From Desulfobacterales bacterium (GTDB taxonomy: Bacteria; Desulfobacterota; Desulfobacteria; Desulfobacterales; UBA11574): a DNA stretch of 35,534 bases. The notes beneath the pieces were generated by a model. It saw nothing but the letters and a program-made list of their open reading frames with translations, was not told the DNA's origin and made no database searches. A program made the translations under genes and the position numbers. The DNA is taken from contig JAQYVT010000021.1 of NCBI GenBank assembly GCA_030145345.1, positions 1-35,534 of the forward strand. Reading direction: 5' to 3'. Below are positions 4,185-33,013 of this stretch, piece by piece. Position 1 is the stretch's first letter; each line of letters starts with the position of its first letter.

Positions 4185-4321
4185 TTTACATTTTGTAAAA
4201 AATTCCGACACCCATTTTTTCCGACCCCCAGCGGCAATTCCATCCAATTGCATAAAATATCCTTATTTATCGGAGAGTTATTTCAAATCATAGGCAAAGA
4301 GTTTCTTGGCATAGCTTTTGC
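4185..4321 (+). promoter_or_regulatory. Sigma-54 promoter module A (dyad, IHF-like site, -24/-12) for uspA
   Basis: Dyad TTTACA-TTT-TGTAAA at 4185-4199 (centre 4192), followed by AAAATTCCGACACC as in modules B-D. IHF-like site TATCGGAGAGTTA at 4268-4280 (two mismatches to WATCAANNNNTTR). Sigma-54 element TTGGCAT...TTTTGCG with GG at 4308-4309 and GC at 4320-4321. Dyad centre to GG is 116 nt; IHF start to GG is 40 nt. The predicted transcript start near 4333 precedes the uspA start at 4384 by about 50 nt. Confidence 0.85.
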
Positions 4322-4383
4322 GTTGATAGACCATTAGACTGGGGTGGCACAATGCCGATTTTCAATTCTCGGAGGAGATTTGG

Positions 4384-4827
4384 ATGTACAAAACCATTTT
4401 AGTACCGTTGGATGGATCAACGCGAGCCGAACAGATATTAACCCATGTGGAAGCTTTGGCCCAATGCTTGAAGGCCAAGGTCATTTTTCTGCAAGTTGTT
4501 CGCTATCCCAATATTGTGGCGTATCACGAGATGGAAATCCTGCTTTACCGCCAAGATATAGAACAACTGAAAAAGCAGGCCGCCGAGTATTTGACAGCCC
4601 AGAAAGGAAAATTCCGGGAAAAAGGTATCGAGGCCAAGATCTGTGTCGTCAATGGTTCGGTCGTTCGAGAGATCATAGACTGTTCTGAGCGGGAAGGTGC
4701 CGATCTCGTCGCAATGACGAGCCATGGAAGGAGCGGCTTGGCTCGGGTTTTCTATGGAAGTGTGGCGGCCGGTGTGCTGCAATTGATAGATCGTCCGCTG
4801 CTCATTATCCGAACACGTAAGGATTAG
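4384..4827 (+). CDS. Universal stress protein, single UspA domain
   Basis: The 147-aa protein has the Usp fold: N-terminal strand MYKTILVPLDGS and the C-terminal nucleotide-binding segment SHGRSGLARVFYGS. The second glycine loop and final GS match the ATP-binding G-2X-G-9X-G(S/T) motif, while the first glycine position is Thr, so nucleotide binding is likely but not certain. It is cytoplasmic, without signal or TM segment. GGAGGAG precedes the ATG. It is apparently monocistronic: it follows sigma-54 module A and a hairpin with a T/A-rich tail lies downstream (4989-5002). It is one of three Usp genes in this window under, or inside, sigma-54 units, pointing to a starvation or energy-stress programme; the precise role is unknown. 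Confidence 0.9.
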   Translation: MYKTILVPLDGSTRAEQILTHVEALAQCLKAKVIFLQVVRYPNIVAYHEMEILLYRQDIEQLKKQAAEYLTAQKGKFREKGIEAKICVVNGSVVREIIDCSEREGADLVAMTSHGRSGLARVFYGSVAAGVLQLIDRPLLIIRTRKD

Positions 4828-4988
4828 TGGTGCCGGAAAGACGCCTTTGATCATCTAATGCGTGTTTCGAGAAATGGACGTCCGGAGTTATACAATGCCT
4901 TCGCTAACGAAACGCGCCGCTGGGTCGCTCTGAAAAAAGGGTGTTTCTATACCATCGAATTGTTCACATCCTAGAAATTCACCCCACA

Positions 4989-5019
4989 CCTCGAATACGA
5001 GGCGTTTATTTAATATTTT
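4989..5019 (+). terminator. Possible terminator after uspA
   Basis: CCTCG-AATA-CGAGG (4989-5002) is followed by CGTTTATTTAATATTTT. The stem is only 5 bp, extendable past one mismatch, so this is a modest prediction. It sits about 40 nt upstream of the cstA start, and no sigma-54 motif was found before cstA. Confidence 0.35.
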
Positions 5020-5044
5020 AAACGAGAAGAAGAAAGGAGGAAGT

Positions 5045-6787
5045 ATGGATGCTTTGCTAATCATGATTATGGCATTTGTCGGTTACATTGCCATGTATCA
5101 TCTGTACGGCAAATTTATCGGAAAAAAAATTTTTGCGTTGTCGGCTATGGCAAAGACCCCTGCCGTTGAACTTGAAGACGGGGTCGATTATGTGCCGACC
5201 AAAAAGGAAGTCATTTTCGGTCATCATTTCACTTCAATTGCAGGTACAGGACCCATTGTGGGTCCGGCAATCGCCATCATCTGGGGCTGGGTACCGGCAC
5301 TGTTGTGGGTTTTTGTCGGAAGTGTCGTCATGGGCGCGGTTCACGATTTCGGCGCCTTAATTATTTCCATGCGAAATCAGGGGAAATCTATCGCAGACTA
5401 CACGGCCAAATACATTAACAGCCGCACCCGATTTTTCTTCTTCCTGATCGTGTTTTTGGAATTGTGGATTATTATTTCAATTTTCGGGCTGGTGATCGCC
5501 GTCGTATTCGCCATGTATCCGGCATCGGTGCTGGCGGTCTGGCTGGAAATACCCATCGCCATTTATCTGGGCCATCTGATTTACAAAAAGGGCAAAAGCG
5601 TAATGGGATGGTCGATTTTTGCCGTGATCGTCATGTATATTACAGTGGTTCTCGGCTATTTTGTACCGATTAAGATGCCCGCTGTAGCAGGCATTCCAGC
5701 CACCGGCGTGTGGACGATTATTCTGCTGGTCTATGCGTTTATCGCTTCGGTACTGCCGGTGACCACGCTGTTGCAGCCGCGGGATTTTATCAACTCCCAT
5801 CAGCTTGTGATTGCAATGTCCCTCTTGGTTTTGGGCGTTATTTTTTCGGCCTTCGGCGGCAGGCTTGAGATCGTAGCCCCGGTCTTGCAAACCGCCCCGG
5901 CGAAAGCCCCGCCCATGTGGCCCTTTTTGTTTATTACCATCGCCTGTGGGGCCATATCCGGATTCCACTCCCTGGTGTCTTCGGGAACTTCGGCGAAACA
6001 GGTCCGTAATGAGGAAGATTCCCTTTTTGTGGGCTACGGCGGCATGCTCATGGAAGGCACCCTGTCTACGGTGGTGATTATCGCGGTGGCGGCGGGTATC
6101 GGAATGGGATATACAACCAAAGCCGGTGTAACGCTAACCGGTGTTGCCGCCTGGACCTCCCACTACTCATCCTGGGCGGCGGCTGCCGGATTGGGCTCAA
6201 AAATCGCCGCTTTTGTGGATGGGTCTGCGAACATGATCAGCGTCATCGGTATTCCCAGAGGAATTGCCCTGGTGATTATGGGGGTTTTTGTGGCGTCGTT
6301 TGCGTCAACGACTCTGGATACCGCTACGCGGATTCAACGCTATGTAATTTCTGAACTTTTCGGCGGTTTTAATCTTAATTTCTTAACCAATCGTTATGCC
6401 GCCACAACCGTAGCTGTGGGTTCAGCCTTAATACTGGCTTTTGTCACCGGTGCCAGCGGGAAAGGTGCTTTAAAACTGTGGCCCCTGTTCGGAGCGGTCA
6501 ATCAAACCCTGGCCGCCCTGGCGCTGATTGTTATCACCCTGTATTTAAAAGCCAGAGGCGGTCTTAAATGGATGGTTTCAGGGATTCCCGCAGCTTTTAT
6601 GGCGGTAATGACCCTTTGGGCGTCCATCATGAATCAGGTAAAATTCGGGTCGACACACAATATATTACTCCAGGCAATCAATATTTTAATTATTGCGATT
6701 GCAGCCTGGATTCTCATTGAGGGTGTCATCAAGTTCTTTTCAAACGGTGAAAAACCCGAAGAACATGCGGAGCCATTAACTGTCTAA
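5045..6787 (+). CDS. cstA: CstA-family carbon-starvation transporter
   Basis: A 580-aa integral membrane protein of the CstA family, whose characterised members import pyruvate or peptides into starving cells. Family signatures are visible: an N-terminal TM helix, the KKEVIFGHHFTSIAGTGPIVGPAIA block near residues 52-76 (given here as its key elements GHHF and GPIVGPA), then GAVHDFGALIIS and the C-terminal STTLDTATRIQRY segment. Roughly 15 hydrophobic helices are apparent. It is shorter than the E. coli CstA and BtsT proteins (about 700 aa), mainly at the C-terminus, as is common for anaerobes. AAAGGAGG precedes the ATG. A strong hairpin terminator follows. It is a single gene between a Usp gene and a small membrane protein. 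Confidence 0.92.
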   Translation: MDALLIMIMAFVGYIAMYHLYGKFIGKKIFALSAMAKTPAVELEDGVDYVPTKKEVIFGHHFTSIAGTGPIVGPAIAIIWGWVPALLWVFVGSVVMGAVHDFGALIISMRNQGKSIADYTAKYINSRTRFFFFLIVFLELWIIISIFGLVIAVVFAMYPASVLAVWLEIPIAIYLGHLIYKKGKSVMGWSIFAVIVMYITVVLGYFVPIKMPAVAGIPATGVWTIILLVYAFIASVLPVTTLLQPRDFINSHQLVIAMSLLVLGVIFSAFGGRLEIVAPVLQTAPAKAPPMWPFLFITIACGAISGFHSLVSSGTSAKQVRNEEDSLFVGYGGMLMEGTLSTVVIIAVAAGIGMGYTTKAGVTLTGVAAWTSHYSSWAAAAGLGSKIAAFVDGSANMISVIGIPRGIALVIMGVFVASFASTTLDTATRIQRYVISELFGGFNLNFLTNRYAATTVAVGSALILAFVTGASGKGALKLWPLFGAVNQTLAALALIVITLYLKARGGLKWMVSGIPAAFMAVMTLWASIMNQVKFGSTHNILLQAINILIIAIAAWILIEGVIKFFSNGEKPEEHAEPLTV

Positions 6788-6793
6788 AACAAC

Positions 6794-6838
6794 GCGGAAG
6801 TATCGCACCCAGCGATACTTCCGCTCACTTTGTTTTTA
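6794..6838 (+). terminator. Rho-independent terminator of cstA
   Basis: A perfect 13-bp stem (6794-6806 with 6812-6824, GCGGAAGTATCGC and its complement) with a 5-nt loop starts seven bases after the cstA stop codon and is followed by TCACTTTGTTTTT. Stem strength and T run make this a clear terminator. Confidence 0.85.
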
Positions 6839-6871
6839 TCCTGTATCTTTTTAAGAAAGTATCATATTTAA

Positions 6872-7303
6872 ATGACACGTAAATTGAAAAGAACATATTT
6901 TACACTCCTGGCTCCTGCGGTCTTCGGCCTCATGGTTATCAGATTGGGCAATGGATATAATTTGTTTGCCATTGGAGAAATGCAAAATTCGCAGGTAATT
7001 GCACCGCTGGTTTTCATATTATCGGTCATTTTTGCGGTTGCGTTACCGGTGTTGTTGAGATCGCTGTTTGCGCACAGAATACGCCATCAAAAAAACACCT
7101 CGGAATCCGATCTCATTAAATTCGAACGCAGCCTCATTTATATGATATCGGTCGCCCCTTATTTGGCCTTGATCGCCTGCCTATTTGAACTTCCCCTCTT
7201 TTACATTGCCGGAACGATATTGGTGTCTCTTTATGGAGTTTATTACTATTATCCGTCGAAAAAGAGGATTCAGTTTGAACGGCGAATTTTCAGAGTTCGG
7301 TGA
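6872..7303 (+). CDS. Small integral membrane protein of unknown function
   Basis: The 143-aa protein is very hydrophobic, with about four predicted TM helices (near residues 10-27, 41-63, 88-105 and 108-126), separated by a charged segment (HRIRHQKNTSESD) and ending in a basic tail (KKRIQFERRIFRVR). I do not recognise the family. The start codon has only a weak AAGAAAG upstream. It lies after the cstA terminator and before a possible structured RNA, so it seems to be transcribed alone. Codon use is ordinary for the window, which together with length and hydrophobic pattern supports a real gene. Confidence 0.65.
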   Translation: MTRKLKRTYFTLLAPAVFGLMVIRLGNGYNLFAIGEMQNSQVIAPLVFILSVIFAVALPVLLRSLFAHRIRHQKNTSESDLIKFERSLIYMISVAPYLALIACLFELPLFYIAGTILVSLYGVYYYYPSKKRIQFERRIFRVR

Positions 7304-7320
7304 TGATACCTCAATCGAGC

Positions 7321-7420
7321 GAAAGCCGAGGATGCCCCAGATCTGAGGCATCAAGGGCGAAGCCGTAATCGTATACTGCGAGCCCTTGATAACGAAGGAG
7401 ATGGGGTGTTATCGGCTTTC
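7321..7420 (+). ncRNA. Candidate structured RNA element (multi-branched fold)
   Basis: An outer 9-bp stem GAAAGCCGA (7321-7329) pairs with TCGGCTTTC (7412-7420). Inside, GATGCC/GGCATC (7331-7336, 7347-7352, with an extra CAG/CTG inner stem) forms one hairpin. ATCAAGGGC/GCCCTTGAT (7350-7358, 7382-7390) can form another; the two share bases 7350-7352, so one is shortened. GATAAC/GTTATC (7388-7393, 7408-7413) is an alternative pairing. No known RNA family was recognised. It could be a small RNA, a leader or a folded repeat; strand is not certain. Confidence 0.3.
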
Positions 7421-7574
7421 CCAAAGGGTAAACAAAATGATGAAATAATCATTGAGTTATAAGTCTTCTATACATGCTTTATATTAAGCAATTTATTTTA
7501 TATTAACAGGCTGTAATTTCATCTTTTTTATAGTTATCAGCATTTTGTTTGCGCTCATTTGAGGTGATATTTAG

Positions 7575-7874
7575 TTGGGAAAAATGAGATCGATACTCCA
7601 TCATATTAAGACTAAAATCGTTTCAATGTGGAAAATCGTCGATGAAGTTGCACGCGGGAAGGCTGTCGCGACCCTCGAATATGAAGTCGAAGAATTGGAG
7701 AATATATTCGGCATTTTGGTCTTGGGGGCATTTATCGGAATCCCTTCACCGCCGATTCATATTACCATGGAACTTTTACCGCAGATGGAAAAGGATTTGG
7801 ATATCATGCTCGAAAAGGTGTCCACGGCCCATGATCCATTGGGGAATCTTTTTTCTGTTTTAGGCATTGAATAG
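7575..7874 (+). CDS. Small helical protein preceding an ArsA/Get3-like ATPase
   Basis: A 99-aa protein with an amphipathic N-terminal half (KTKIVSMWKIVDEVARG), a short hydrophobic segment (FGILVLGAFIGIPSPP, around residues 45-60) and a helical C-terminus. I do not recognise the family. A GAGGTGAT six bases before TTG 7575 favours this TTG start over the in-frame ATG at 7584. It ends nine bases before the ATPase start, so the two are almost certainly co-translated and probably act together, the small protein perhaps being the client, anchor or partner of the ATPase. The role is inferred from pairing only. Confidence 0.75.
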   Translation: MGKMRSILHHIKTKIVSMWKIVDEVARGKAVATLEYEVEELENIFGILVLGAFIGIPSPPIHITMELLPQMEKDLDIMLEKVSTAHDPLGNLFSVLGIE

Positions 7875-7883
7875 AACAGCTAT

Positions 7884-8786
7884 ATGGAACAGCAACTTCA
7901 TTTTTTTATTGGTAAGGGCGGCGTTGGCAAATCAACAACCTCTGCCGTAACGTCCGTTCATCTATCCAACGCTTCTATGGATACCCTCTTGGTTTCTATG
8001 GATCCCGCGCATAGTCAAAGAGATATTTTTATGATGGACTTTTCGAAGACACCCAAAAAAATTGGGCGACACCTGGCGGTGATAGAGATCGATGAAGCGT
8101 ACTGGATTGAAAAATATCTGAAGGAGACCCAAGACCAAATAAAAAAAACCTACCGATACGAGAGTGCTTTTAATTTAGAAAATTATTTTGATGTGTTGAA
8201 GTTTTCTCCGGGATTGGAAGAGTATGCGCTTCTGTTGGCTTTTGAAAATATCATTCATACATTTTCAGATAAAGAGATTATTGTTTTTGATATGGCGCCC
8301 ACGGCCCTGACCCTACGATTTTTTTCCATGCCGGTTATCACCCTCATCTGGTTGGAAGAACTGCTGAGCCTTCGAAAAAAAATTTATGACAAAAAGGAGA
8401 TTGTATCAAAAATAAAAATCGGTAAAAAAGAAATCGAAAAGGACCCGGTAAAATCAAAACTAGAACGGTTGATTCAAAACCATCAGAATTTGAAAGAACT
8501 TTTCATGTCTAAAGCATCCATCGTCAATCTTGTCATGAATAATGATACGTTGTCCTTTTCAGAATCTGTTCGAATCAAAAAGAGGTTGACCGATATCGGA
8601 ATTCAAGTTGACCGAATTGTTGTCAACAAGTTCTTGAATACAGACATTGCAGAGGATATTGAAAAAGAATTCGAGAATCAAAAAATAGTAAGGTTTCCGT
8701 TCTCGTCAAACGGGTTGATCGGTTTTCGGGCCATCAATGAATATATCGATGCAAACAGGGAAATCGTGATGGGTTTAAGCGGTTAG
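7884..8786 (+). CDS. ArsA/Get3-family P-loop ATPase
   Basis: A 300-aa single-domain member of the deviant-Walker (SIMIBI) ATPases. The P-loop FIGKGGVGKST lies at residues 8-18. The switch I region reads SMDPAHS, and the switch II-like segment FDMAPTALTLRFF matches the DTAPTGHTLR motif of ArsA/Get3 with substitutions. No cysteine set for arsenite is apparent and no arsenic genes are nearby, so an arsenite pump role is unlikely; membrane-protein targeting or a partner-specific chaperone role are alternatives. It is about the length of one ArsA half. It follows the 99-aa protein by nine bases. A hairpin at 8856-8875 lies downstream. Confidence 0.85.
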   Translation: MEQQLHFFIGKGGVGKSTTSAVTSVHLSNASMDTLLVSMDPAHSQRDIFMMDFSKTPKKIGRHLAVIEIDEAYWIEKYLKETQDQIKKTYRYESAFNLENYFDVLKFSPGLEEYALLLAFENIIHTFSDKEIIVFDMAPTALTLRFFSMPVITLIWLEELLSLRKKIYDKKEIVSKIKIGKKEIEKDPVKSKLERLIQNHQNLKELFMSKASIVNLVMNNDTLSFSESVRIKKRLTDIGIQVDRIVVNKFLNTDIAEDIEKEFENQKIVRFPFSSNGLIGFRAINEYIDANREIVMGLSG

Positions 8787-8891: not shown

Positions 8892-9028
8892 TTTACATTG
8901 TGTAAAAAATTCCGACACCAATTCCTTCCTCCCCATGGCGATAAGCTCATGTAGTCTCAGAAAATATTCCGACTTATCAAACGGTTATTTGTGTCGTCTT
9001 TAAAACAGATGCTTGGCATGTCTTTTGC
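8892..9028 (+). promoter_or_regulatory. Sigma-54 promoter module B for the small ORF and formate/nitrite channel operon
   Basis: Dyad TTTACA-TTG-TGTAAA at 8892-8906 (centre 8899) with the conserved tail AAATTCCGACACC. A perfect IHF consensus TATCAAACGGTTA lies at 8975-8987. Sigma-54 element TTGGCAT...TTTTGCG has GG at 9015-9016 and GC at 9027-9028. Dyad to GG is 116 nt and IHF to GG 40 nt, identical to module A. The predicted transcript start near 9040 lies about 43 nt before the 59-aa gene. Confidence 0.9.
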
Positions 9029-9082
9029 GTTATGTAGGATTGGGCCGTTGAATTGAAATTTAAATAAACAGAGGAAAAACAA

Positions 9083-9262
9083 ATGCAAGACACGGCACCG
9101 TGCGTATCGTTATCAAAGACGGTATCTTCAGAATCTTTCAGCATAAAAACCACATTATACGAATTGATCGAAGCGGTGAATAAAGAAACAACGCCGGATG
9201 AGAAACATTGGGTTACTTTGATTGTGGATAACATCCTTCGTTCCGGCAGATCGGTTTCATGA
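9083..9262 (+). CDS. Small 59-aa protein, first gene of the channel operon
   Basis: The frame ATG 9083 to TGA 9262 encodes 59 residues with a GAGG eight bases upstream of the start. It is the first reading frame after the sigma-54 module. The protein is soluble, with a Ser/Thr-rich N-terminus (SLSKTVSSESFSIKTT) and a helical segment (LYELIEAVNKET, then HWVTLIVDNILRSGR). No domain was recognised. Placement between promoter and channel gene, good ribosome-binding site and protein-like composition support a real gene. It could be a regulator or partner of the channel, but function is not known. Confidence 0.7.
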   Translation: MQDTAPCVSLSKTVSSESFSIKTTLYELIEAVNKETTPDEKHWVTLIVDNILRSGRSVS

Positions 9263-9334
9263 TATAAAAATAAACGGTTAACTTTTGCCAGGCTGAAAAA
9301 TTAGATCTTTTCAGAATTAAAAAGGGGCAGCGAA

Positions 9335-10147
9335 ATGGTTACCAAGTTGCCGAGGGACATTGTTAAAGCCGTCAACACGGCAGGAATGGTCAAGGCTACA
9401 ATGAGCTTAGAAAAAACATTGGTTTTGGGTTTTCTGGCCGGAGCCTTTATCGCCTTTGGCGCATTTTTGGCCATTATGGTGGGGGGCGGTCTACCGGGTA
9501 TTAAAATGACCAATCCGGGTTTTCAGAAGTTTGTTTTCGGCGGCACGTTTCCGGTGGGCCTGATGCTGGTTGTCATCGCCGGGTCGGAACTGTTTACCGG
9601 CAACACGGCCATCAGCGTACCCGGGGTGCTTTCCGGCAGAATCAAAGGTTTCGCATGGATCAGAAACATGTTCCTTTCTTATACCGGCAATCTCATCGGT
9701 TCTCTTTTCGTCGCCTTTTTTCTGGCGTACCAGACAAAATTGTTGGGTAGTGACCCGTGGCTGAGTTTTACCATCGGTATCTCCGAGGTTAAGGTCAGCC
9801 AAAGCTTTTGGGTGTTGTTTCTAAAAGGTATCGGTTGCAACTGGTTGGTGTGCCTGTCCATCTGGTTGGCCCTGGCGTCCGAAGATGCCGCGGGAAAAAT
9901 TTTGGGCATCTGGTTTCCCATTATGGCGTTTGTCACTCTGGGGTTTGAGCACTCTGTCGCCAACATGTTCTTTATTCCGGTGGGAATTTTTTATGGCGCC
10001 GAAGTGACCTGGACGCAATTTTTTGTTGTAAATCTCATCCCGGTGACGCTGGGAAACATTGTGGGCGGCAGTTTCTTTGTCGGTGCGATTTACTGGTTTG
10101 TTTACGAATATGAGAGACCGGGCAAAGTTGAAAAAAGCCTCACGTAA
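9335..10147 (+). CDS. Formate/nitrite transporter family channel (FocA/NirC type)
   Basis: A 270-aa six-helix membrane protein of the FNT family, which forms pentameric channels for formate, nitrite or hydrosulfide. Visible signatures are FTGNTAISVPGVLSG, KGIGCNWLVCLSIWLALAS and the pore-histidine segment GFEHSVANMFFIP, followed by GNIVGGSFFVGAIYWFVY. The ATG follows a GGGG stretch. The transported anion cannot be decided from sequence: formate would fit the anaerobic electron-transfer setting, while hydrosulfide would fit a sulfate reducer. It lies between the 59-aa gene and a 97-aa soluble protein in the module B unit. Confidence 0.93.
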   Translation: MVTKLPRDIVKAVNTAGMVKATMSLEKTLVLGFLAGAFIAFGAFLAIMVGGGLPGIKMTNPGFQKFVFGGTFPVGLMLVVIAGSELFTGNTAISVPGVLSGRIKGFAWIRNMFLSYTGNLIGSLFVAFFLAYQTKLLGSDPWLSFTIGISEVKVSQSFWVLFLKGIGCNWLVCLSIWLALASEDAAGKILGIWFPIMAFVTLGFEHSVANMFFIPVGIFYGAEVTWTQFFVVNLIPVTLGNIVGGSFFVGAIYWFVYEYERPGKVEKSLT

Positions 10148-10214
10148 TCGCAATTCCCAAAACGCCGGAATTGTGTGTATATATGATTTTAAACACAAAA
10201 AAAGGAGGTTTATC

Positions 10215-10508
10215 ATGAAGGCAGGCATTTTTTTTACCGGCACAGGCCCCATTCTGGTTTTGACCACCTATGACGCGCTTGATGATTCCAGGCTGATTGA
10301 AAAGCTATTGGCAAAGGGGATCAAAAAATTCATGGCGTATGAAGTTTCAGAAGAAAAGGTAAAGGAAAAATACGGAATGCAATATAAGGTGATCCTGGGT
10401 GATCTCCACCAGACGGACGACTTGCGGGTTCTCGACTATGATGGGCATCATGTGTTCTACAACTTTTCATTCAAAGAACTCGGAGAGCCGATTTTTTATG
10501 AATCCTAA
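10215..10508 (+). CDS. 97-aa soluble protein of unknown function coupled to the channel gene
   Basis: Start at ATG 10215 is chosen because AAAGGAGG lies nine bases upstream; the longer open frame from 10059 overlaps the channel gene and is not credible. The protein begins MKAGIFFTGTGPILVLTTYD and contains FMAYEVSEEKVKEKYG and LGDLHQTDDLRVLDYDG, a compact alpha/beta-like composition with no TM or signal. I have the impression that similar proteins sit beside FNT channels in related bacteria, but could not verify this. Gene order suggests a cytoplasmic partner or regulator of the channel. A long hairpin follows at 10530-10572. Confidence 0.75.
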   Translation: MKAGIFFTGTGPILVLTTYDALDDSRLIEKLLAKGIKKFMAYEVSEEKVKEKYGMQYKVILGDLHQTDDLRVLDYDGHHVFYNFSFKELGEPIFYES

Positions 10509-10529
10509 TTTTTCCAAGTGTCTAAAAAA

Positions 10530-10572
10530 TTACGGAAATCGCTGAAGTTTTATCATTCAACGATTTCCGTAA
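10530..10572. terminator. Long hairpin after the 97-aa gene
   Basis: A 17-bp stem with one mismatch (10530-10546 with 10556-10572) and a 9-nt loop starts 21 nt after the stop codon. The right side is followed by AAATAGG, not a T run, so on the plus strand it is an imperfect terminator. It may reduce readthrough to the second Usp gene or protect the upstream mRNA end. Confidence 0.55.
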
Positions 10573-10587
10573 AATAGGAAAACAACC

Positions 10588-10722
10588 GTGAAGGGCATTC
10601 TCATTTGCCAAAAATATCCAGCCATACCCAAAGCCGCTTACGGGTTGATTCGCGAATGTGAGCGGCCGGATAACGTCGTAAAGGAAGAAGAACTATACCG
10701 TGAAGGTTCCTTAAGCATCTGA
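10588..10722 (+). CDS. Possible small 44-aa gene
   Basis: GTG 10588 to TGA 10722 encodes MKGILICQKYPAIPKAAYGL and a charged remainder ending in REGSLSI. AGG lies ten bases upstream and the next gene starts 18 bases after the stop, so an operon placement is possible. No family is recognised and the ribosome-binding site is weak; it may be a chance frame. Confidence 0.33.
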   Translation: MKGILICQKYPAIPKAAYGLIRECERPDNVVKEEELYREGSLSI

Positions 10723-10740
10723 TGTGTGTGCGAGGAAAAT

Positions 10741-11220
10741 ATGAAAAAGATTCGTAGGATTATGGTGGCTTGTGATTTTTCAGAGTACTCAAAAGAGGCT
10801 TTAAAATATGCTGCTAAACTGGCCGAGGTTTTAAAGAGCGATCTGATCGTTGTCAATGTAATCAACAAAAGGGATGTAGAAGCGGTTCAAATGGCAGCAA
10901 TGGTTAGCGGCGTTATTTCCGAAGCGGCGTTTATAAAGGATAGAATGGAAAATCGATCCGAAGGCATCGATAAACTGCTCGAAGAAATATCTGCGACCCA
11001 TCTTCCCATCAAAAAAGTTATCAAGATAGGCGTGCCCTTTCACGAGCTAATAAAGGCCGTAAAGGATAAACTTGCAGACATCGTGATTATGGGGCCCAAG
11101 GGCCGAAGCAATCTCGCCGGTATTCTTTTCGGCTCCACGGCGGAAAAAATGTTCCGTCACTGCCCTGTTCCCCTATTGAGTGTCCGCGCGAATCAGCACG
11201 AATCAATTTGGGATCGGTGA
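10741..11220 (+). CDS. Universal stress protein, single domain
   Basis: A 159-aa Usp protein (MKKIRRIMVACDFSEYSKEA at the N-terminus). The C-terminal segment GPKGRSNLAGILFGSTAEK fully matches G-2X-G-9X-G(S/T), so ATP binding is expected. ATG 10741 is preferred over the GTG at 10726 because GAGG lies at proper spacing. It lies downstream of the long hairpin in the module B unit, so it may be a distal operon member or have its own promoter; none was identified. Cytoplasmic. Confidence 0.9.
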   Translation: MKKIRRIMVACDFSEYSKEALKYAAKLAEVLKSDLIVVNVINKRDVEAVQMAAMVSGVISEAAFIKDRMENRSEGIDKLLEEISATHLPIKKVIKIGVPFHELIKAVKDKLADIVIMGPKGRSNLAGILFGSTAEKMFRHCPVPLLSVRANQHESIWDR

Positions 11221-21710: not shown

Positions 21711-21760
21711 AAGATCACCTCGTTTTTGAGTGCGCTGAAATGGATCTTCTTCTTGCGCAG

Positions 21761-23983: not shown

Positions 23984-24127
23984 TTAAAACGTCCGCTTTT
24001 TTTTATCTCGTCCGGTCAAAAACCGCCAGAAAAGCGCGAGCGCAACCAGCGCTCCGACCGCAAGCAGATACACAATCGATTGGGTATACGTTATAAATTC
24101 TTGAAGCGTGTAAAAAATCGATTCCAT
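23984..24127 (-). CDS. hmcD: HmcD-like small membrane protein
   Basis: A 47-aa frame (ATG 24127, TAA 23984-23986) not seen by long-ORF searches. It reads MESIFYTLQEFITYTQS, a TM helix (IVYLLAVGALVALALFWRFL) and a basic tail TGRDKKKRTF. Small single-TM proteins of this size lie at exactly this position, between HmcC and HmcE, in known hmc operons. The start has only a weak AGAGA. Position, composition and a clean stop support a real gene; its role is presumably structural. Confidence 0.85.
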   Translation of the reverse strand: MESIFYTLQEFITYTQSIVYLLAVGALVALALFWRFLTGRDKKKRTF

Positions 24128-24262
24128 GTCACGTCTCTTTGTCGGATCTTAAAAATCCAAATCCTCAAGATCAGGCCATAAAACCTAAGATCTGCCAAAC
24201 ACCCTTAAAAGTGACCATTTATCCGGACAAAAGCGGGGAAGTTTTAAGTGAGTCCCGCCGTG

Positions 24263-24280
24263 TCGGGCCTTCCGGCCCGA
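24263..24280 (-). other. Hairpin between hmcBC and hmcD
   Basis: TCGGGCC-TTCC-GGCCCGA is a perfect 7-bp stem with a tetraloop 15 bases after the stop codon of the HmcB-HmcC gene. No T run follows on the minus strand, so a processing or mRNA-stabilising structure inside the operon is more likely than a terminator. The 168-base spacer is the second longest in this operon. Confidence 0.4.
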
Positions 24281-24295
24281 ATGCTTTATGGCTGT

Positions 24296-26437
24296 TTAAC
24301 GTTCATATCGATAATCCGGGTGTTCGTATAAAATCGGCATCCGGGCAACGCAAAACCGGTATGCAATAATACCGATGGTAACAATGAAAATGCTGGTGAC
24401 AACCTCCATCCAGCTTGGAAAATATCTTTGATCTGCGGGCAGGTTCCAATTAAAGGCAATCAGGCAGATATTTAATCGATTTAAAATAATTCCCAGCAGG
24501 GTCCATAGCGCCGCCCAACGAATAAGACGGATGTTGCGTTCCCTTTCGCCGACGGCAAAGAAGAATGCCGGCAGTGCAACAAATCCTATCAATTCAAGAA
24601 GATACCAAATTCCCCAGCGGCTGATCAGCTCCCCCCAATCATTGTCGGCGGCCAAGCCGATCAGCTGAATCATGACATAACCGGCCATAACCCATGCAGC
24701 GGCTTTTGCAAAACCGAAGGTTATGTGAGGACCTGCGGACAGGTGGGCCGGGTCCATTTTGGGTCGCAGAAACCGCTGGGCCAACGTGCTTTCAAAAATA
24801 ACCATGGACATCCCGGCAAACATACTGGAAATTAAGAAAGATACGGGTAAATAAGTGGAATGCCATAGCGGATGGAGCTTGAACGGCGCAATCAAAAAAA
24901 GGCCGCCGAGGGTCAGGTTGTGTAATATAAAAAGTATAATACCTAAAACGGTCAGGGCCAGCGTCAACTCAATGACGGCATTGCGGGCTTTTCTCCATCC
25001 GAGGCATTCAAAGGCTGCCGGACTGCATTTGATCGCCAGAACGAAAACAGACAGAAACATACACACAGCCAACATAAAGAGTAACGAGGAGGTCCCTTGT
25101 GAAAGAAATATTGAATACGGGAGGCGCCACGGCCGTCCCACATCATAACACAGAGCGAGGACGACCAGAGCGTATCCCAGAAATGCCGTCAAGACGGCCG
25201 GTCGAACCGCTGAATGACATCTCTTTAAGCCGAAAAGATAACAAGCGGCGGATGTCATATACCCGCCGGCGGCCAGGGTAACGCCGCATAACAGGTCAAA
25301 CCCGATCCAGAGCCCCCAGGGATTGTTGTCATCAAGACGGGTTACGGCGCCGAGCCCTCCGGTAAACCTGAGAACCGTGAGAATCATCCCGACCAGCACG
25401 ATGATTCCAGCAGTTAGATTAAAGGGTGAGAATACCGATTGGAGATTTTTGAGCCGCGGGAGCGACGTCTGTGCGCCTGAACTTTTTCTCGCCGGCGTTG
25501 CAGCGTCTTTCACTGCTTTTTTTTTGTCTCGTTTTGCGCCAGCTTGCGTCTCCTCGTTTACGATCCGGTCTTTACGTTTTGAGATGGCATAAATCCCTGT
25601 GAGAAAAACGAACCCTGTAACCACAACAATGGGAAATGAAGCCAGTAGCCCGGAAGTCCGTTGCGCTGCCGAGATATCGCCGAGATCTTGGCGCATCCCG
25701 ATATCTGCAAACCCTACGTTAGAGATATATAACCAGTTGCAGCCGCCCATTTCATGTTCTCCGTAGATATGATCCACATAGCGGCCCGGATAATCGTGAA
25801 TTCTTTGCCGGGCGATTTTGATCAAATCTTCGCGGGTGCCAAACGCCAGGGCTTCTTTGGGGCAGATTTCGACACATTTAGGCATCAGCCCTTTTTGAAT
25901 TCTCGGCTGACAAAGGGTGCATTTCATCACCTTGGGGGTGATGGGATCACTGTACTCGTAAGCCGGGATATTGAACGGACAAGCGATCATACAATAGCGG
26001 CAGCCGACACACAGAGACGGGTCATAGACAACGGCACCGGTCTCGGATTTTTTAAGCGCTTTGACAAAACATGCCGATACGCAGGCCGGTTCCAGGCAAT
26101 GATTGCATTGCTTTTTCACAAAAACCGGCAATGCTGTTGCCGGCGGTAAAAACCGATTGACCACGGTATATACGCCGGCATCCGGCCGCCGCTCGAGGTT
26201 CAGAACGTTCAGGTCGTCAAAGGGGCGCTCCGGAGGGGGAAGTTCGTTGACCTGGTTGCAGGCGGCTTCGCATTTGCGGCATCCGATGCAGCGGGATATG
26301 TCGTGCAGAACGCCCAGACTCCCGGGGTGCCCGCTGAAATGCCGGGTAGCGGCCGCCTGGGCGTGGCGACTCAAAAGGAAATTGTTTCCCATGGCCGTGC
26401 CCGTCCCGGCCAAAAATTGTCTGCGGGTAACCCCCAT
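24296..26437 (-). CDS. Fused HmcB-HmcC: periplasmic ferredoxin subunit joined to NrfD-type membrane subunit
   Basis: A 713-aa protein. The N-terminus has a Tat-type signal (TRRQFLAGTGTAMG). Four ferredoxin clusters follow (CIGCRKCEAAC, CNHCLEPACVSAC, CVGCRYCMIACP, CTLCQ with CVEICP), as in DMSO-reductase-type electron-transfer subunits, then a TM helix (SFPIVVVTGFVFLTGIYAIS near 285). A Lys-rich linker (KRKDRIVNEETQAGAKRDKK) leads into an NrfD-like domain with about eight to ten TM helices (about residues 345-700). In classical Hmc complexes these are two genes. The linker would be cytoplasmic. Start ATG has GAGGAAG upstream and lies 15 bases after hmcA. It should pass electrons from the cytochrome to the membrane quinone site. 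Confidence 0.9.
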   Translation of the reverse strand: MGVTRRQFLAGTGTAMGNNFLLSRHAQAAATRHFSGHPGSLGVLHDISRCIGCRKCEAACNQVNELPPPERPFDDLNVLNLERRPDAGVYTVVNRFLPPATALPVFVKKQCNHCLEPACVSACFVKALKKSETGAVVYDPSLCVGCRYCMIACPFNIPAYEYSDPITPKVMKCTLCQPRIQKGLMPKCVEICPKEALAFGTREDLIKIARQRIHDYPGRYVDHIYGEHEMGGCNWLYISNVGFADIGMRQDLGDISAAQRTSGLLASFPIVVVTGFVFLTGIYAISKRKDRIVNEETQAGAKRDKKKAVKDAATPARKSSGAQTSLPRLKNLQSVFSPFNLTAGIIVLVGMILTVLRFTGGLGAVTRLDDNNPWGLWIGFDLLCGVTLAAGGYMTSAACYLFGLKRCHSAVRPAVLTAFLGYALVVLALCYDVGRPWRLPYSIFLSQGTSSLLFMLAVCMFLSVFVLAIKCSPAAFECLGWRKARNAVIELTLALTVLGIILFILHNLTLGGLFLIAPFKLHPLWHSTYLPVSFLISSMFAGMSMVIFESTLAQRFLRPKMDPAHLSAGPHITFGFAKAAAWVMAGYVMIQLIGLAADNDWGELISRWGIWYLLELIGFVALPAFFFAVGERERNIRLIRWAALWTLLGIILNRLNICLIAFNWNLPADQRYFPSWMEVVTSIFIVTIGIIAYRFCVARMPILYEHPDYRYER

Positions 26438-26452
26438 AATTCTTCCTCTATT

Positions 26453-28111
26453 TCAGAATAACGCCGTTTGTTGAACCTTTACCGTTTTCTTTGGGTGACA
26501 TGCCTTGCAATCCGTGGACAGCGGTTTTTCAATGCCCATGCGCTGGTGGCAGGTCATACATTGTCCATGATAAGCGCCCAATAACCCGGGTTTTCCGTTT
26601 TTTTGGGTTTGAAGTGACATGCCGTGACATGCGGCACATTTTGGGTATGCGCCGGCCGACGGACCCTTATGGTGGCATCCCGAACATATCGACGTTGTTT
26701 TTCTGTGAAAGTGCTGTGCCAACCTGCTTTTCTGGGTTCGTTCGATCAGGGCCTGAACAATTTTCCGGTGTGGAAACTGCACGCCGTCATATTGATCCGT
26801 CATGATATCTATGGTTACCTTATCCGGTATCTGCTCATCCAATATCGTCGGCCCGTTGGCTGAAGGGGCCTTGATCGCGGTTGCCGCAACGTTGGCCCGG
26901 GTCGCATTGCTTTCGGGCAGCGGTCTAAGCGCTTCCCTGGCAACCGTATGACAAGGATTGCATTTAAATTTATCTAATTGTCCGGTTTTCATTTGGGCGT
27001 GGCAGCCGGCGCAGTCTGAAGATTTCATGGATTCCCGGTGACAGCCCAGACAGCTTCTGGATGTATTTGAAGAATGCATGGCCTGTTCAAGTCTGATAAA
27101 TTTACTTTTTTCGGAACCGGTTCTAGTATGGCATGCCGTGCAAGTGTCCATGGATTCATGGTGACACAAACGACAATTTTCAACCTGTTTTTCATGGGAG
27201 AGATGATCGAATGCCACCGGTTCGACAAACTGAAGCGACGGCTTCCCTGATTCAATCGCATCCTTTAACCAGGTCGACAAAAGCACAACATCCGGTTGAT
27301 TCCGCTTTATTCGTGGGATTTCCTTGAGTTTCACAATTTTTGACTGCTTTGCCAACGCGTGACATGCTGCGCAGTTTGTCGGTCCGGCCTTTTTATTCTC
27401 TAGGTTGAGTGCGATATGACAGTTGAGGCAGTCTTCATGCGCAACTGTTTTAAACGATCGGACTTCCTCGGTCTTTTCCTGTTTATGGCAGTAGCGGCAT
27501 GTCCCTTCCTTGCCTTTGGTATAAACCGTCTTATTGAGCGCTTTATCGTATTCATGATGACATGCACTGCAATTCTCTTCTTTTTCGCCGTCCACGGATC
27601 GGATCCGGTCGGCAAGTACATGACGATAATGAAGGGATTTATCCATGCCAAAGGGTTGGGACGCGTCTATATATGGCGGGTTTTGAGCGTGGCACATGCG
27701 GCATTCGCCGGTAAGGGGTCCTGATTTTAATCCCTGATCTCGTCTATCCGTATGGCATCCGATACACGTGTGATGATATAATTCCTTATCGTTTTTGAAT
27801 CCATCATCTTTGAGCCGCTTTAATTTGAAAACAAAAACATTTTCCTTTTTAAGATGGCACGATTCGCACGACTTGTTTTCAATCGCTTCGGTATGTCTGT
27901 CATGAGGGAAGAACACCTCGGGCATTTGATAGCCTTGGGGGGGGCTTGACAGCCGGATTCTGATGAGATCAGATCTTTCTTGATTCTGGGATGTGTTGCC
28001 ATAAAGCGGGCAGAACAGAATGATTGTGATTATAAGAAAAAATAGAATTCCATTTCGGAGCCTTTGCAGAGGAACTTTCTCCAAAATGCTCGACATAAAC
28101 AAAATATTCAT
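26453..28111 (-). CDS. hmcA: HmcA-like 16-heme cytochrome c
   Basis: The 552-aa exported protein contains sixteen CxxCH heme motifs (CESCH, CIGCH, CRMCH, CSACH, CRYCH, CLNCH, CAACH, CRLCH, CTACH, CLGCH, CAGCH, CNPCH, CSGCH, CAACH, CMTCH, CKACH), the same number as the 16-heme HmcA. An N-terminal hydrophobic segment (GILFFLIITIILFCPLYG) acts as signal or anchor, putting the hemes in the periplasm. Length is near that of known HmcA. No clear ribosome-binding site precedes ATG 28111 or the in-frame ATG 28096. It would take electrons from periplasmic hydrogenase or formate dehydrogenase through small cytochrome c3 and pass them to HmcBC. Confidence 0.93.
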   Translation of the reverse strand: MNILFMSSILEKVPLQRLRNGILFFLIITIILFCPLYGNTSQNQERSDLIRIRLSSPPQGYQMPEVFFPHDRHTEAIENKSCESCHLKKENVFVFKLKRLKDDGFKNDKELYHHTCIGCHTDRRDQGLKSGPLTGECRMCHAQNPPYIDASQPFGMDKSLHYRHVLADRIRSVDGEKEENCSACHHEYDKALNKTVYTKGKEGTCRYCHKQEKTEEVRSFKTVAHEDCLNCHIALNLENKKAGPTNCAACHALAKQSKIVKLKEIPRIKRNQPDVVLLSTWLKDAIESGKPSLQFVEPVAFDHLSHEKQVENCRLCHHESMDTCTACHTRTGSEKSKFIRLEQAMHSSNTSRSCLGCHRESMKSSDCAGCHAQMKTGQLDKFKCNPCHTVAREALRPLPESNATRANVAATAIKAPSANGPTILDEQIPDKVTIDIMTDQYDGVQFPHRKIVQALIERTQKSRLAQHFHRKTTSICSGCHHKGPSAGAYPKCAACHGMSLQTQKNGKPGLLGAYHGQCMTCHQRMGIEKPLSTDCKACHPKKTVKVQQTALF

Positions 28112-28385
28112 ACAGTCAACAGGTTAATTCAACCCAATCCATCATACGGTCTTGGAGCTTTTTCATTGTTTTTAGTTCAAACCGGGCCAAACCCAACCGA
28201 GAGCGGTAACTCGGGACTACAGCCAGAAACGGTCTTTTCGGACATCGGCAGCAAAATAAACCGTCCCCCGCTTGTTTTTATCAGGCTGTCTAAAGGCTTA
28301 TGACAGGCTTTCCATCAATATCCTTTGGTTATATCCCCAAGTCGCCATCAACGATCCTTGACCCGGTTACTGAACCTGTTTATCG
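28112..28385. other. Spacer between dsrC-like gene and hmcA
   Basis: The 274-base gap has only a weak 5-bp hairpin (CCGAG/CTCGG) and no recognisable promoter or gene. Without a clear terminator it is compatible with one transcript, but a separate hmcA promoter cannot be excluded. Confidence 0.4.
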
Positions 28386-29048
28386 CTATCTTAGACGCAA
28401 TCCGGCAATCTTAACGGCACCCCGGTGGTATCCATCAGGGAATAACTGCTCGAGATCTGCCAATCTAATCTGGTTCTCGTCACAGGTGTCATAAACGGTG
28501 GGGATCTCTTTGTTCTTTTTATAACTTTCGCGAAGAAAATTAATAATTTCCCAGTGCTTTTCCGTCAGCTTTCCACCGGGTATTTTCATTTCATATGCTC
28601 TGTGGATCGCATAATGCTCATCCCATTCATCAGGATCCATTAAAAATCCCCGTACATCCACGGTATAAGACTTATTACTGGCAACTGCGTGAAGGGCCTC
28701 GGCCGCCTCGGCAGTATATAATTCTTGTTGTTTATGACTGTCGCGGAAGCTAATACCTGCCAGCTTACAGGCACCTCTCTGATATCCGGTGGGGAAAAGT
28801 TTCTTTAACTGTTTTCGCCGCAGATTATTCTCTCTACAGGCTTCAAAGATGGTAGGACATATGCCCGTTTCTTTAAATTTATGCCGGATAGAATAAATTA
28901 CATCCCAGTGCTCTCTGGTGGGACCCTTCTCGATCCGAAGTTGCGGCGCCATTCCTTCCACAAAATTTTCATCCCATTGTTCAGGTTCCGCCAAGAACCC
29001 GATGGAATCTAAAGAATAACTTTTTCCTTTGTGTGTCAAAATGTTCAT
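28386..29048 (-). CDS. Tandem DsrC/TusE-family protein (two domains in one chain)
   Basis: A 220-aa protein made of two DsrC-like domains. Domain 1 (1-105) has THKGKSYSLDSIGFL, REHWDVIYSIRHKFK and FPTGYQRGACKLAG; domain 2 (125-220) has SNKSYTVDVRGFL, EKHWEIINFLRESYKKN and FPDGYHRGAVKIAG. Cys94 in GACKLAG matches the CysB position of DsrC; in domain 2 this residue is Val212. Neither half has the C-terminal Cys (CysA), the chain ending LRLR. ATG 29048 is chosen because GGAG lies eight bases upstream; the GTG at 29054 is too close. DsrC carries sulfur trisulfides to DsrC-reducing complexes; with one Cys this protein could bind persulfide but not form the usual intramolecular bond. It leads the Hmc-Hdr unit. 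Confidence 0.85.
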   Translation of the reverse strand: MNILTHKGKSYSLDSIGFLAEPEQWDENFVEGMAPQLRIEKGPTREHWDVIYSIRHKFKETGICPTIFEACRENNLRRKQLKKLFPTGYQRGACKLAGISFRDSHKQQELYTAEAAEALHAVASNKSYTVDVRGFLMDPDEWDEHYAIHRAYEMKIPGGKLTEKHWEIINFLRESYKKNKEIPTVYDTCDENQIRLADLEQLFPDGYHRGAVKIAGLRLR

Positions 29049-29169
29049 GTTCACTTCTCCTTTCGAAATTTTTCGCTCCCGAGTTTTTCCGTGTCGGGAT
29101 TGTTGAGCAGTCAGAGTTTAGAAAAACAATTAAAAAATAATCATGAATTTAATGTGGTAATATGGAAGA

Positions 29170-29307
29170 GCAATTAATATGCCAATCGGAGCAGCAGGAA
29201 TCTGATCATATAATCATATGATATTATTTATTAAATTTTATGATGTGATAGGAAAGAAGTGCTTGTCTTAAGAAGAATGATCGTCAGATATTTTTACAGA
29301 CTGTAAA
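29170..29307 (-). promoter_or_regulatory. Sigma-54 promoter module E for the dsrC-hmc-hdr gene set
   Basis: Dyad TTTACA-GAC-TGTAAA at 29293-29307 (centre 29300). On the minus strand an IHF-like site TATCATATGATTA (one mismatch) runs 29223 to 29211. Sigma-54 element TTGGCAT...TTGCTC has GG at 29183-29182 and GC at 29171-29170. Dyad to GG is 117 nt and IHF to GG 40 nt. Transcription would start near 29158, about 110 nt before the dsrC-like start codon. Confidence 0.82.
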
Positions 29308-30482: not shown

Positions 30483-30533
30483 GGATTGATGTCAGGCAAT
30501 TTTACACTGTGTAAAATTGCCTGACATCAATCC
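30483..30533. repeat. 51-bp perfect palindrome containing the shared TTTACA-N3-TGTAAA dyad
   Basis: Arms of 24 bp (30483-30506 and 30510-30533) are exact complements around a 3-nt spacer CTG. The core is the same dyad as in modules A-E, and the flanks repeat the downstream half-motif (TTGCCTGACATCA; compare TTCTGACATC in module D) on both sides, so the site looks like a doubled version of the box. In the rhodanese leader RNA it would form a very stable hairpin. A GATCAA IHF-like core starts at 30584, 76 nt from the centre on the plus side, but no intact sigma-54 element lies at 30624. Confidence 0.9.
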
Positions 30534-30805: not shown

Positions 30806-30916
30806 TATTTACGATGTAATGATTGCTGAGTGTACGCACCTGGATTGTATGTAGCTGCATAAAATCCGGTTCAGTCAATGAGTTAAAAAGGAGTATAAAT
30901 TCATGGTTTGACCACT

Positions 30917-32143
30917 CTAAAATGAGATAACGAATTTTTCCGTCTTAGCATTATACGCCGCCAGCAGGTACCAGACGATAAAAAAAGCCAAATAAAGAAT
31001 CGGGGTCCAGGTCCAGGAGAAGATATCGACAACATAAATTCCCTTGCCCAAAAAGGGCCCCAGAGCGGTATTTTGTACGGCGAATTTAAATGGCGGATAC
31101 ACCGAACAAAAACCGACGATGGCCAACCAGATTTTGGTGTTTCCTTCGCCGGCCCGCCACAGACCGGAACTTGCGCAGGCACCGGCAATGACCATCCCCA
31201 GGCCGAAAATTGTCCCGCCGACTAAACTTCCCAACCAGAAACGGTGGTCGATTCCATGGGTGTCCGGCTGAAAGAAACCGTACTTTATAACCGCCGATCC
31301 GGTGCTGTAAATGATCAGACTCAGGATGACCGCTTTGACCATTTCATAATCACCGGTCATAAAAGGATTTCGAAAGGTTCGCTGGAGACAGAAGCGGGCC
31401 CGCTGCATAAAAAACCCGATCCAAAGCCCGAAAAAGGCCATACCCCCGATCAGGGTTTTGTCGAAGGCCGTGTAGACATAAAATGAAAGACATATTGCGA
31501 TATAGATGCCGGCTCCGATGTAGGGATACGCTTTGCTCCAGTTGATTAACGGTGTTTTTGGAGAGGCAACCGGTTTTGGCGTCGGTATTTTTACCGGCCA
31601 GTGAAGCATTTCCCAGATAAGATATTTGACACCCAGATAGGATCCCGCAGCCAGGCCGATCATCATTGCGAACCCCCCCAGGGAATAGACCCCCACAGCG
31701 GTGTAAAACCCGCCCTCAATACACCCGTTGGCAAAAGAAGAGCCGATGCCCATCAAGGCGCCCCCAAGGAATCCTTTTACATATTCCCGGCCCGGTGCGC
31801 GGTAGGTACTAAACTGCCGTTTCATCATGGACGCCCCCATTGAACCGAAAATCATCCCAAGATTCATAACGGATACAGGATGGATCCAGGGGGCAAGGGG
31901 CGCTTCCTTTAATCCGGCAAGTTTTCCAAGGCCCAGATAGTAATACAGCTGATTGCCCCAGTTGCCATACCCCGAAGAAATGCCCCAGGGATAACGCCAC
32001 AAAAAAATCAGTATGGCCAGAATGCCCAGTCCGATACCGGCCACCCACATGGGCATATCCCGAATGAAAATAAAATGGCAACCTTTACGGATTTCTTTCC
32101 AAGTTTCACCCCACAAGCCTGTTTTTGTAGTTTCCAATGGCAA
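30917..32143 (-). CDS. YeeE/YedE (TsuA-like) sulfur-compound transporter
   Basis: A 408-aa membrane protein of the YeeE/YedE family, whose characterised member TsuA imports thiosulfate; other members are linked to selenium. Two internal repeats each have the conserved Cys loop: GIGSSFANGCIEGGFYTAVG and GMVIAGACASSGLWRAGEG. About nine to ten TM helices. The start is TTG 32143 or TTG 32137; AAGGAG is 3 or 9 bases upstream respectively, so the second is slightly better placed. It lies on the same strand as the periplasmic rhodanese but 553 bases upstream of it, so they may be regulated separately. Thiosulfate or another sulfane-sulfur donor is the likely substrate. Confidence 0.9.
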   Translation of the reverse strand: MPLETTKTGLWGETWKEIRKGCHFIFIRDMPMWVAGIGLGILAILIFLWRYPWGISSGYGNWGNQLYYYLGLGKLAGLKEAPLAPWIHPVSVMNLGMIFGSMGASMMKRQFSTYRAPGREYVKGFLGGALMGIGSSFANGCIEGGFYTAVGVYSLGGFAMMIGLAAGSYLGVKYLIWEMLHWPVKIPTPKPVASPKTPLINWSKAYPYIGAGIYIAICLSFYVYTAFDKTLIGGMAFFGLWIGFFMQRARFCLQRTFRNPFMTGDYEMVKAVILSLIIYSTGSAVIKYGFFQPDTHGIDHRFWLGSLVGGTIFGLGMVIAGACASSGLWRAGEGNTKIWLAIVGFCSVYPPFKFAVQNTALGPFLGKGIYVVDIFSWTWTPILYLAFFIVWYLLAAYNAKTEKFVISF

Positions 32144-32535
32144 CGTCTCCTTGTAATTTTCGTGAAATAATTATCGATTGTACCGAGACTCCGGAACGAA
32201 GTATCCGAGAGAAAAAAGAGGATGGTATTTTCGAAAGATTCGGGCATTATTGTTTGGCTACAACCCTGGTTGTGAAATCATCGGCCTGACAGAACCCCTT
32301 GTTAAGGATGTCATCCAAAATTGGTTGTGCAATTTCTATTCCATAATTCCCTAGTTTAAGGGAATATTTGTCAACCTCAAGTCAGTCCTATCCACTTATT
32401 GTCAACTTATGATAAAATGTATCAGAAAAGAATGGTAATGTGTATCAAAACAGTGGAATGTGTCTCATAAAATGTGTCAAATCATAAGAAAAGTGTACCA
32501 AACTACATCTTATTAAAATAAAAAAAACATACGAG
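32144..32535. other. Intergenic region with degenerate direct repeats
   Basis: Between about 32385 and 32505 a loose repeat occurs several times (ATAAAATGTATC, TAATGTGTATC, GAATGTGTCTC, ATAAAATGTGTC, AAAAGTGTACC). This resembles multiple binding-site ends of insertion elements, but no transposase gene or inverted end was identified. No promoter for the YeeE/YedE gene was found. Confidence 0.45.
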
Positions 32536-32790
32536 ATCGACCCCTGCCCGGTTCCAAGTGCCCGGGGGTCGATGCGGATCATCAGTTCCATAGAAGATCC
32601 GGATATGGTCAAAAAAAAATTCTCAAGCAACTGGTTTTTTGGGGTTAAAAGGAAATCCGGCGCCCAGAGTCAATGCTCCGCCCGCTGGTGCCTTTCAGAG
32701 GATAACGATTTACCATCCCCCTGGGCGGATGATGACTTGAAAGACGCTGAATGTCCGCCTGGCGCCTATTTTCAATCAAAATCCGATTTC
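32536..32790 (+). pseudogene. Remnant of an IS91-like transposase, C-terminal end
   Basis: Reading from about 32536, DPCP then SMRIISSIEDPDMVKK resembles the C-terminal zinc-ribbon tail of IS91-family transposases (typically CP-CGGRM(R/K)IISFIEDP-VI-KIL). A run of nine A at about 32608-32616 shifts the frame: in the alternate frame it continues KKILKQLVFWG, as expected for that family, then stops. Returning to the first frame gives VKRKSGAQSQC and ADDDLKDAECPPGAYF, like the family's end. The metal-binding Cys motif is partly destroyed. So this is a decayed fragment without the catalytic part. Family assignment is by motif memory. Confidence 0.6.
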
Positions 32791-32877
32791 ACTTTTGACG
32801 GCTCTCCAAAGGCGAGTTCAAATCCATTCAATATTCATTATTTTATCGTATAAATCTTAAAAATAACCCGAACACAT

Positions 32878-33013
32878 TTTACAACCTGTAAAAAATTCTG
32901 ACATCTTTTGCCCTACAAATTTATGTGTCAGACGCTCCTTTTTCCAAATAAGATAGTCTTATCTAAAGGTTACATAAATCACCCGGTGTTTTGAATCCTG
33001 GCACGATTGTCGC
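32878..33013 (+). promoter_or_regulatory. Sigma-54 promoter module D for the methyltransferase operon
   Basis: Dyad TTTACA-ACC-TGTAAA at 32878-32892 (centre 32885) with tail AAATTCTGACATC. IHF-like site TATCTAAAGGTTA (one mismatch) at 32960-32972. Sigma-54 element CTGGCACG...GTCGCAG has GG at 33000-33001 and GC at 33012-33013. Dyad to GG is 115 nt and IHF to GG 40 nt. The leader to the start codon at 33245 is about 220 nt. Confidence 0.82.

Follow-up and report, generated by a model that had tools for sequence, protein, structure and literature searches.

The 35,534 nt contig JAQYVT010000021.1 of a Desulfobacterales bacterium (assembly GCA_030145345.1), analysed over its whole length and referred to here as the window, is contig C59 of a 3.57 Mb genome assembled in 188 contigs. 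It carries five transcription units in which a TTTACA-N3-TGTAAA dyad is followed by an IHF-like site and a -24/-12 sigma-54 promoter element, as well as, at the contig start, a truncated paralogue of an NtrC-type activator gene, designated REG (Table 1). The sequences suggest that these promoters very probably belong to one sigma-54 regulon activated by the two-component response regulator REG. From its predicted targets, the regulon looks like an undescribed common switch in sulfate-reducing Desulfobacterota, acting on genes for the uptake of sulfate, the export of sulfur, electron transfer and stress.

Promoter architecture

The five units had been described in a first-pass annotation of the window, in which every coordinate and spacing proved correct to the base. 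The distance from the dyad centre to the GG of the promoter element is 116, 116, 116, 117 and 115 nt, and the IHF-like site starts 40 nt before the GG in all five units, with perfect consensus matches at 8975 and 14049. The tail that follows the dyad, previously assigned to four units, is indeed shared, but by all five (CGACA, CGACA, TGACA, TGACG and TGACA). A sixth exact dyad at 30501, which has a sigma-54 element on neither strand, had been overlooked.

In the whole genome, 15 exact dyads were found (six on C59, seven on C183 and one each on C155 and C181), compared with none in the reversed control. The genome-wide scan, which had been suggested earlier as a check, thus revealed further promoters: a GG-N10-GC element lies on one strand, 112–117 nt from the dyad centre, at 14 of the 15 dyads, whereas dyads occurring equally often without such an element would have spoken against the architecture. 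At a random oriented point of the window, the probability of encountering GG-N10-GC at 112–118 nt is 0.031, falling to 0.0012 for the stronger form GGYA-N6-TYGC, while the observed frequencies of dyads with the element are 5/6 in the window and 14/15 in the genome.

The operator was defined from an alignment of 59 promoters, collected by the dyad and GG-N10-GC with at least three of five further consensus bases. It is a polar, 26 bp sequence, TTTACA-N3-TGTAAAAAWNCYGACA, composed of three TGTMAR-type half-sites. The tail YGACA equals the dyad itself in conservation (G, A, C and A at 97–98 %) and is invariably located on the promoter side, while the far side of the dyad lacks conservation. The right two half-sites constitute a 17 bp TGT-N11-ACA dyad, the geometry of NtrC sites. 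The left half-site belongs to the operator as well, since the promoters recovered by a search independent of it all keep TTTACA or a close variant: all 13 such promoters in the genome match at least five of the six bases, with TTTACA in 11 and TTTGCA and TTAACA in the other two (C42 and C160). The regulon comprises at least 16 promoters in this genome. The promoters lack a fourth half-site on the far side of the left TTTACA: a match was detected in two of 162, which corresponds to the background level.

The promoter element was compared with the consensus TGGYAYRN4TTGC, with the -24 GG and -12 GC 10 nt apart. In the 59 promoters, whose selection itself required GG-N10-GC and at least three further bases, the T, GG, A and GC are invariant and the TT of TTGC is conserved at 97–98 %; RpoN is encoded in the genome (PF04552 on C170, 220.6 bits). 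Matches to the IHF consensus WATCAAN4TTR, scored between enhancer and promoter, are best at -40 from the GG, a result equalled in none of 500 shuffles, and are sharper when aligned on the GG than on the dyad.

Table 1. Features of the window; positions refer to the window unless another contig is named
Feature	Position	Strand	Sequence or remark
REG paralogue, NtrC-type activator	2..976	+	5' end lost at contig start; GAFTGA kept
Unit 1 three-half-site operator	4185..4210	+	TTTACATTTTGTAAAAAATTCCGACA
Unit 1 IHF-like site	4268..4280	+	TATCGGAGAGTTA, 40 nt before GG
Unit 1 -24/-12 sigma-54 element	4307..4322	+	TGGCATAGCTTTTGCG
Unit 1 genes: Usp, CstA, 143-aa protein, ArsA-like ATPase	4384..8786	+	operon extent inferred
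Unit 2 operator	8892..8917	+	
Unit 2 IHF site	8975..8987	+	TATCAAACGGTTA, perfect consensus
Unit 2 -24/-12 element	9014..9029	+	TGGCATGTCTTTTGCG
Unit 2 genes: 59-aa open reading frame, FNT channel (9335-10147), Usp (10726-11220)	9083..11220	+	
Unit 3 operator	13966..13991	+	
Unit 3 IHF site	14049..14061	+	TATCAAGGCGTTA, perfect consensus
Unit 3 -24/-12 element	14088..14103	+	TGGCATATCTTTTGCG
Unit 3 genes: TauE/SafE permease, 235-aa protein	14131..16173	+	
Unit 4 operator (dyad at 29293)	29282..29307	-	reads towards dsrC-hmc-hdr
Unit 4 IHF-like site	29211..29223	-	TATCATATGATTA
Unit 4 -24/-12 element	29169..29184	-	TGGCATATTAATTGCT
Unit 4 genes (Hmc/Hdr set): DsrC-domain protein, class III multihaem cytochrome, NrfD/ferredoxin fusion, b-type cytochrome	16183..29054	-	operon extent inferred
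Unit 4 genes (Hmc/Hdr set), list continued: HmcF-like, Usp, HdrC-, HdrB- and HdrA-like proteins	16183..29054	-	operon extent inferred
Palindrome, 24-bp arms, four-half-site operator version (dyad 30501)	30483..30533	.	perfect; no sigma-54 element, single genome copy
Unit 5 operator	32878..32903	+	
Unit 5 IHF-like site	32960..32972	+	TATCTAAAGGTTA
Unit 5 -24/-12 element	32999..33014	+	TGGCACGATTGTCGCA
Unit 5 genes: UroD-like methyltransferase, B12-binding corrinoid protein	33209..35061	+	
REG, intact copy, 478 aa	C139:4089-5525		receiver, AAA+ (Sigma54_activat, GAFTGA), Fis-type helix-turn-helix (HTH_8); Pfam

Upstream of the DsrC ATG in unit 4 lies an AAGGAG ribosome site. Between two of the units, a diadenylate cyclase with DACND and DACNH sensor domains is encoded on the minus strand (11287-12720), with no dyad promoter over its gene. 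Four half-sites occur only in the palindrome surrounding the sixth dyad. Its predicted RNA fold is strong (-40 kcal/mol, z -8.9), but the T-run is short and broken, which argues against a terminator, and its occurrence as a single copy in the genome argues against a dispersed repeat.

Two further arrangements of the operator were observed elsewhere in the genome. On C183 (L017), two back-to-back operator pairs approximately 70 bp apart (35418/35488 and 37889/37960) serve divergent genes, each pair with a cytidylate-kinase-like protein on one side. On C160 (L118), an operator region with the left half-site AACA is present at 1312 and 1501 in near-identical tandem copies 189 bp apart, the full sigma-54 consensus being confined to the second copy.

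Target genes and distribution among relatives

The predicted targets on C183 encompass two Cache-kinase/receiver/DASS clusters, an acyl-CoA synthetase–GNAT fusion with a CBS protein, a Usp with an acetyl-CoA hydrolase/transferase, two cytidylate-kinase-like proteins and a cyclic-nucleotide-binding protein, while the C181 target is a Na/H exchanger. Among 159 unique promoters, with first-gene classes assigned by best BLAST hit and receiver counts being loose, the commonest first genes encode receiver, Cache-kinase, CBS and DASS proteins, followed by Usp, TauE and cyclic-nucleotide-binding proteins. The regulon is larger than the window had indicated and is centred on sulfate-uptake signalling clusters.

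The conservation in relatives expected by the first-pass annotation was also observed. Sixteen of the 24 family genomes carry the composite motif, with no control matches, as do 107 of the 243 genomes in the order. In a scan of named GTDB genomes, the matches listed are Desulfobacterota records, except one titled only Proteobacteria, and include Desulfobacteraceae bacterium Eth-SRB2, Ca. Desulfatibia vada, Desulfonema magnum, Desulfosarcina alkanivorans, Desulfosarcina widdelii, Desulfoferrobacter suflitae, Desulfomonile, Syntrophobacteraceae and Desulfovibrio sp. DV. At the loci of Desulfonema, Desulfosarcina and Desulfoferrobacter, Cache kinases, receivers and DASS transporters are among the first genes. 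In Desulfovibrio sp. DV and in one Syntrophobacteraceae genome, TauE is served by a dyad promoter that comes after REG.

The activator REG

One activator gene, REG, both co-occurs with the motif and adjoins the dyads, which supports the single-activator regulon suggested earlier. REG exhibits the domain composition of an NtrC-type response regulator (Table 1), and its similarity to the NtrC profile TIGR01818 (483–495 bits) is below the cut-off of 558.6. Judged by these domains, REG belongs to the two-component response regulators, and part of one copy can be seen in the window. Within the family, REG orthologues are encoded in 14 of the 16 motif-positive genomes but in none of the eight motif-negative ones, which include two of the same genus (Fisher 6e-5, uncorrected for kinship). 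In the order, REG was found in 96 of 107 motif-positive versus 47 of 136 motif-negative genomes (Fisher 1.8e-19, likewise uncorrected). Moreover, among the matches listed, 13 of the 14 activator genes on motif-bearing named public loci are REG orthologues (62–80 % identity), and in most such loci the dyad is directly downstream of REG. In relatives, REG is located 3' of a gene encoding a kinase of approximately 490 aa (four-helix-bundle sensor, HisKA and HATPase), at the end of a kinase/receiver/DASS cluster. In the genome analysed here, a second kinase/sigma-54-activator pair is encoded directly downstream of the intact REG (L094, C139, 386-3597), with no dyad nearby. Operator, spacing, promoter element, co-occurrence and gene adjacency can all be read directly from the DNA.

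Several observations weigh against activation of these promoters by REG. The intact copy is located on a contig without a dyad, and the copy in the window looks defective as an ATPase. The latter is 81 % identical to the C139 protein, which in turn shares 93 % identity with its same-genus orthologue, indicating that a diverged paralogue is present in the window. In its Walker B motif, FLDK (FLDKIGH) takes the place of FLDE (FLDEIGD), and the Lys is confined to this copy among those aligned; LDE is intact in C139 REG and in seven other full-length copies. As the Walker B Glu of AAA+ activators is required for ATP hydrolysis, the window copy is predicted to be unable to hydrolyse ATP, and it is probably the C139 copy that functions as the activator, although the Lys could also be an assembly error. 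Furthermore, 47 genomes of the order contain REG but no exact dyad match, perhaps because their operators have diverged, and 11 motif-positive genomes, several of them incomplete, lack REG. Related genomes are not independent samples, and outside the window the IHF-like match is degenerate in several promoters; the mean over all 59 is 3.5 mismatches in nine positions.

Two other identities of the activator have been considered. The TGT-N11-ACA part of the operator could be the 17 nt enhancer of the PrsK/PrsR system, the genes described here forming a side branch of a PEP-CTERM regulon. The 17 nt motif reported upstream of a sigma-54 element ends in TTTACA (Haft 2006, PMC1569441) and is matched by the reverse complement of the right operator part, TGTCRGNNTTTTTTACA, and DVU0110 and the PEP-CTERM regulator DVUA0057, both of which bind ahead of a TSUP permease operon, have one predicted motif in common (Kazakov 2015, PMC4641369). 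Nevertheless, REG scores 424–460 bits against the PrsR profile TIGR02915, below the cut-off of 502.6, which is reached by no activator in the genome, and REG was therefore rejected as PrsR. PrsK (TIGR02916) had no match in 24 genomes, a search in which the control was silent too. The number of half-sites also differs, the gap between operator and promoter is 92–98 nt as opposed to 32–92 nt for PrsR, and the targets tested with Pfam are not PEP-CTERM proteins, making this origin improbable.

It is similarly difficult to credit that the sites are read by a different member of the 37 sigma-54 activators encoded in the genome and that REG merely co-travels with them. Several activator genes do lie near dyads, and C155 holds both a dyad and an activator gene. 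However, the C155 activator, the one such rival checked for co-occurrence with the motif, reaches 80 % identity or more with an orthologue in no more than six of the 16 motif-positive genomes, and proteins of its 56 % class are present in most genomes, motif-bearing or motif-free. Its distribution does not follow the motif, and it was discarded as the reader of the sites; across families, the dyad-adjacent activator is REG. Finally, an unrelated protein, either a repressor or a global regulator, might occupy the dyad, with the sigma-54 spacing inherited through copying of promoter cassettes, as several promoters are alike beyond the operator and the Cache kinase, receiver and DASS cassettes are clearly duplicated, but the rarity of dyads without a sigma-54 element (1/15), the polarity and the 112–118 nt window that the operator keeps in the family set, where the stretch separating it from the promoter has diverged, and the co-occurrence of REG with the motif leave this explanation with hardly any credibility.

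Proposed mechanism and significance

For activation by REG, we infer binding, IHF use, phosphorylation and the signal as follows. REG is probably phosphorylated by the neighbouring histidine kinase and would bind the three half-sites approximately 115 bp upstream of the -24 GG. Bending of the DNA by IHF at -40 from the GG would allow looped REG to drive sigma-54 open-complex formation. With Cache-kinase/DASS sulfate-uptake clusters, Usp proteins and TauE permeases as the most frequent targets, sulfate/sulfide or energy status is the probable signal. A more far-reaching proposal is that REG serves as a master switch of sulfur and energy status in Desulfobacterota, co-ordinating the uptake of sulfate, the export of sulfur compounds, the DsrC-Hmc-Hdr electron flow and proteins of storage and stress via the polar three-half-site enhancer, with the second copy and its dead Walker B motif acting as a dominant-negative tuner in this lineage; at present, we regard this as doubtful.

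In sulfate reducers outside Desulfovibrio, the control of sulfate uptake and of its electron path is largely unknown. The analysis provides a concrete operator, a named activator with a likely kinase and a list of targets across many Desulfobacterota, covering the relatives Eth-SRB2 and Ca. Desulfatibia as well as cultured Desulfosarcina, Desulfonema and Desulfoferrobacter. While the sigma-54/IHF promoter type is textbook knowledge, the regulon, the three-half-site operator, the activator and the link to sulfate-uptake clusters appear to be new, and no earlier account describing the regulon was found in the literature searched.

Comparison with known systems

The architecture resembles that of NtrC, NifA and the orp operons of D. 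vulgaris, for which sigma-54/IHF control has been shown (PMC3897727), in its upstream enhancer dyad, the intervening IHF-like site, the -24 GG/-12 GC element and an AAA+ activator with GAFTGA and a Fis helix-turn-helix domain. Unlike in NtrC-type systems, the operator contains three half-sites and not a simple dyad, and REG, only 41–45 % identical to the named relatives encountered, is under every NCBIfam equivalog cut-off. PrsK/PrsR (PMC1569441) likewise combines a response regulator, sigma-54 promoters and a 17 nt enhancer that, by its description, resembles the right operator part, but differs in profile score, spacing and targets.

In D. vulgaris, the sigma-54 response regulators DVU0110 and DVUA0057, which share a predicted motif, also act on a TSUP (TauE-like) permease operon (Rajeev 2011, PMC3333781; Kazakov 2015, PMC4641369). 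DVU0110 may be the REG orthologue, since Desulfovibrio sp. DV encodes REG immediately ahead of a dyad promoter that serves a receiver protein and TauE. Unlike the REG regulon, however, the reported regulons of DVU0110 and DVUA0057 are small (two and six operons) and annotated as exopolysaccharide/transport. The Cache-kinase/DASS/CBS clusters of Desulfobacteraceae have been assigned to sulfate uptake, with control by WalR-type regulators proposed (Sci Adv 2025, PMC11887813). These clusters have the same gene content as the main targets on C183; sigma-54 control by REG, which is not among the mechanisms proposed there, would alter the wiring suggested for DASS sulfate-uptake clusters.

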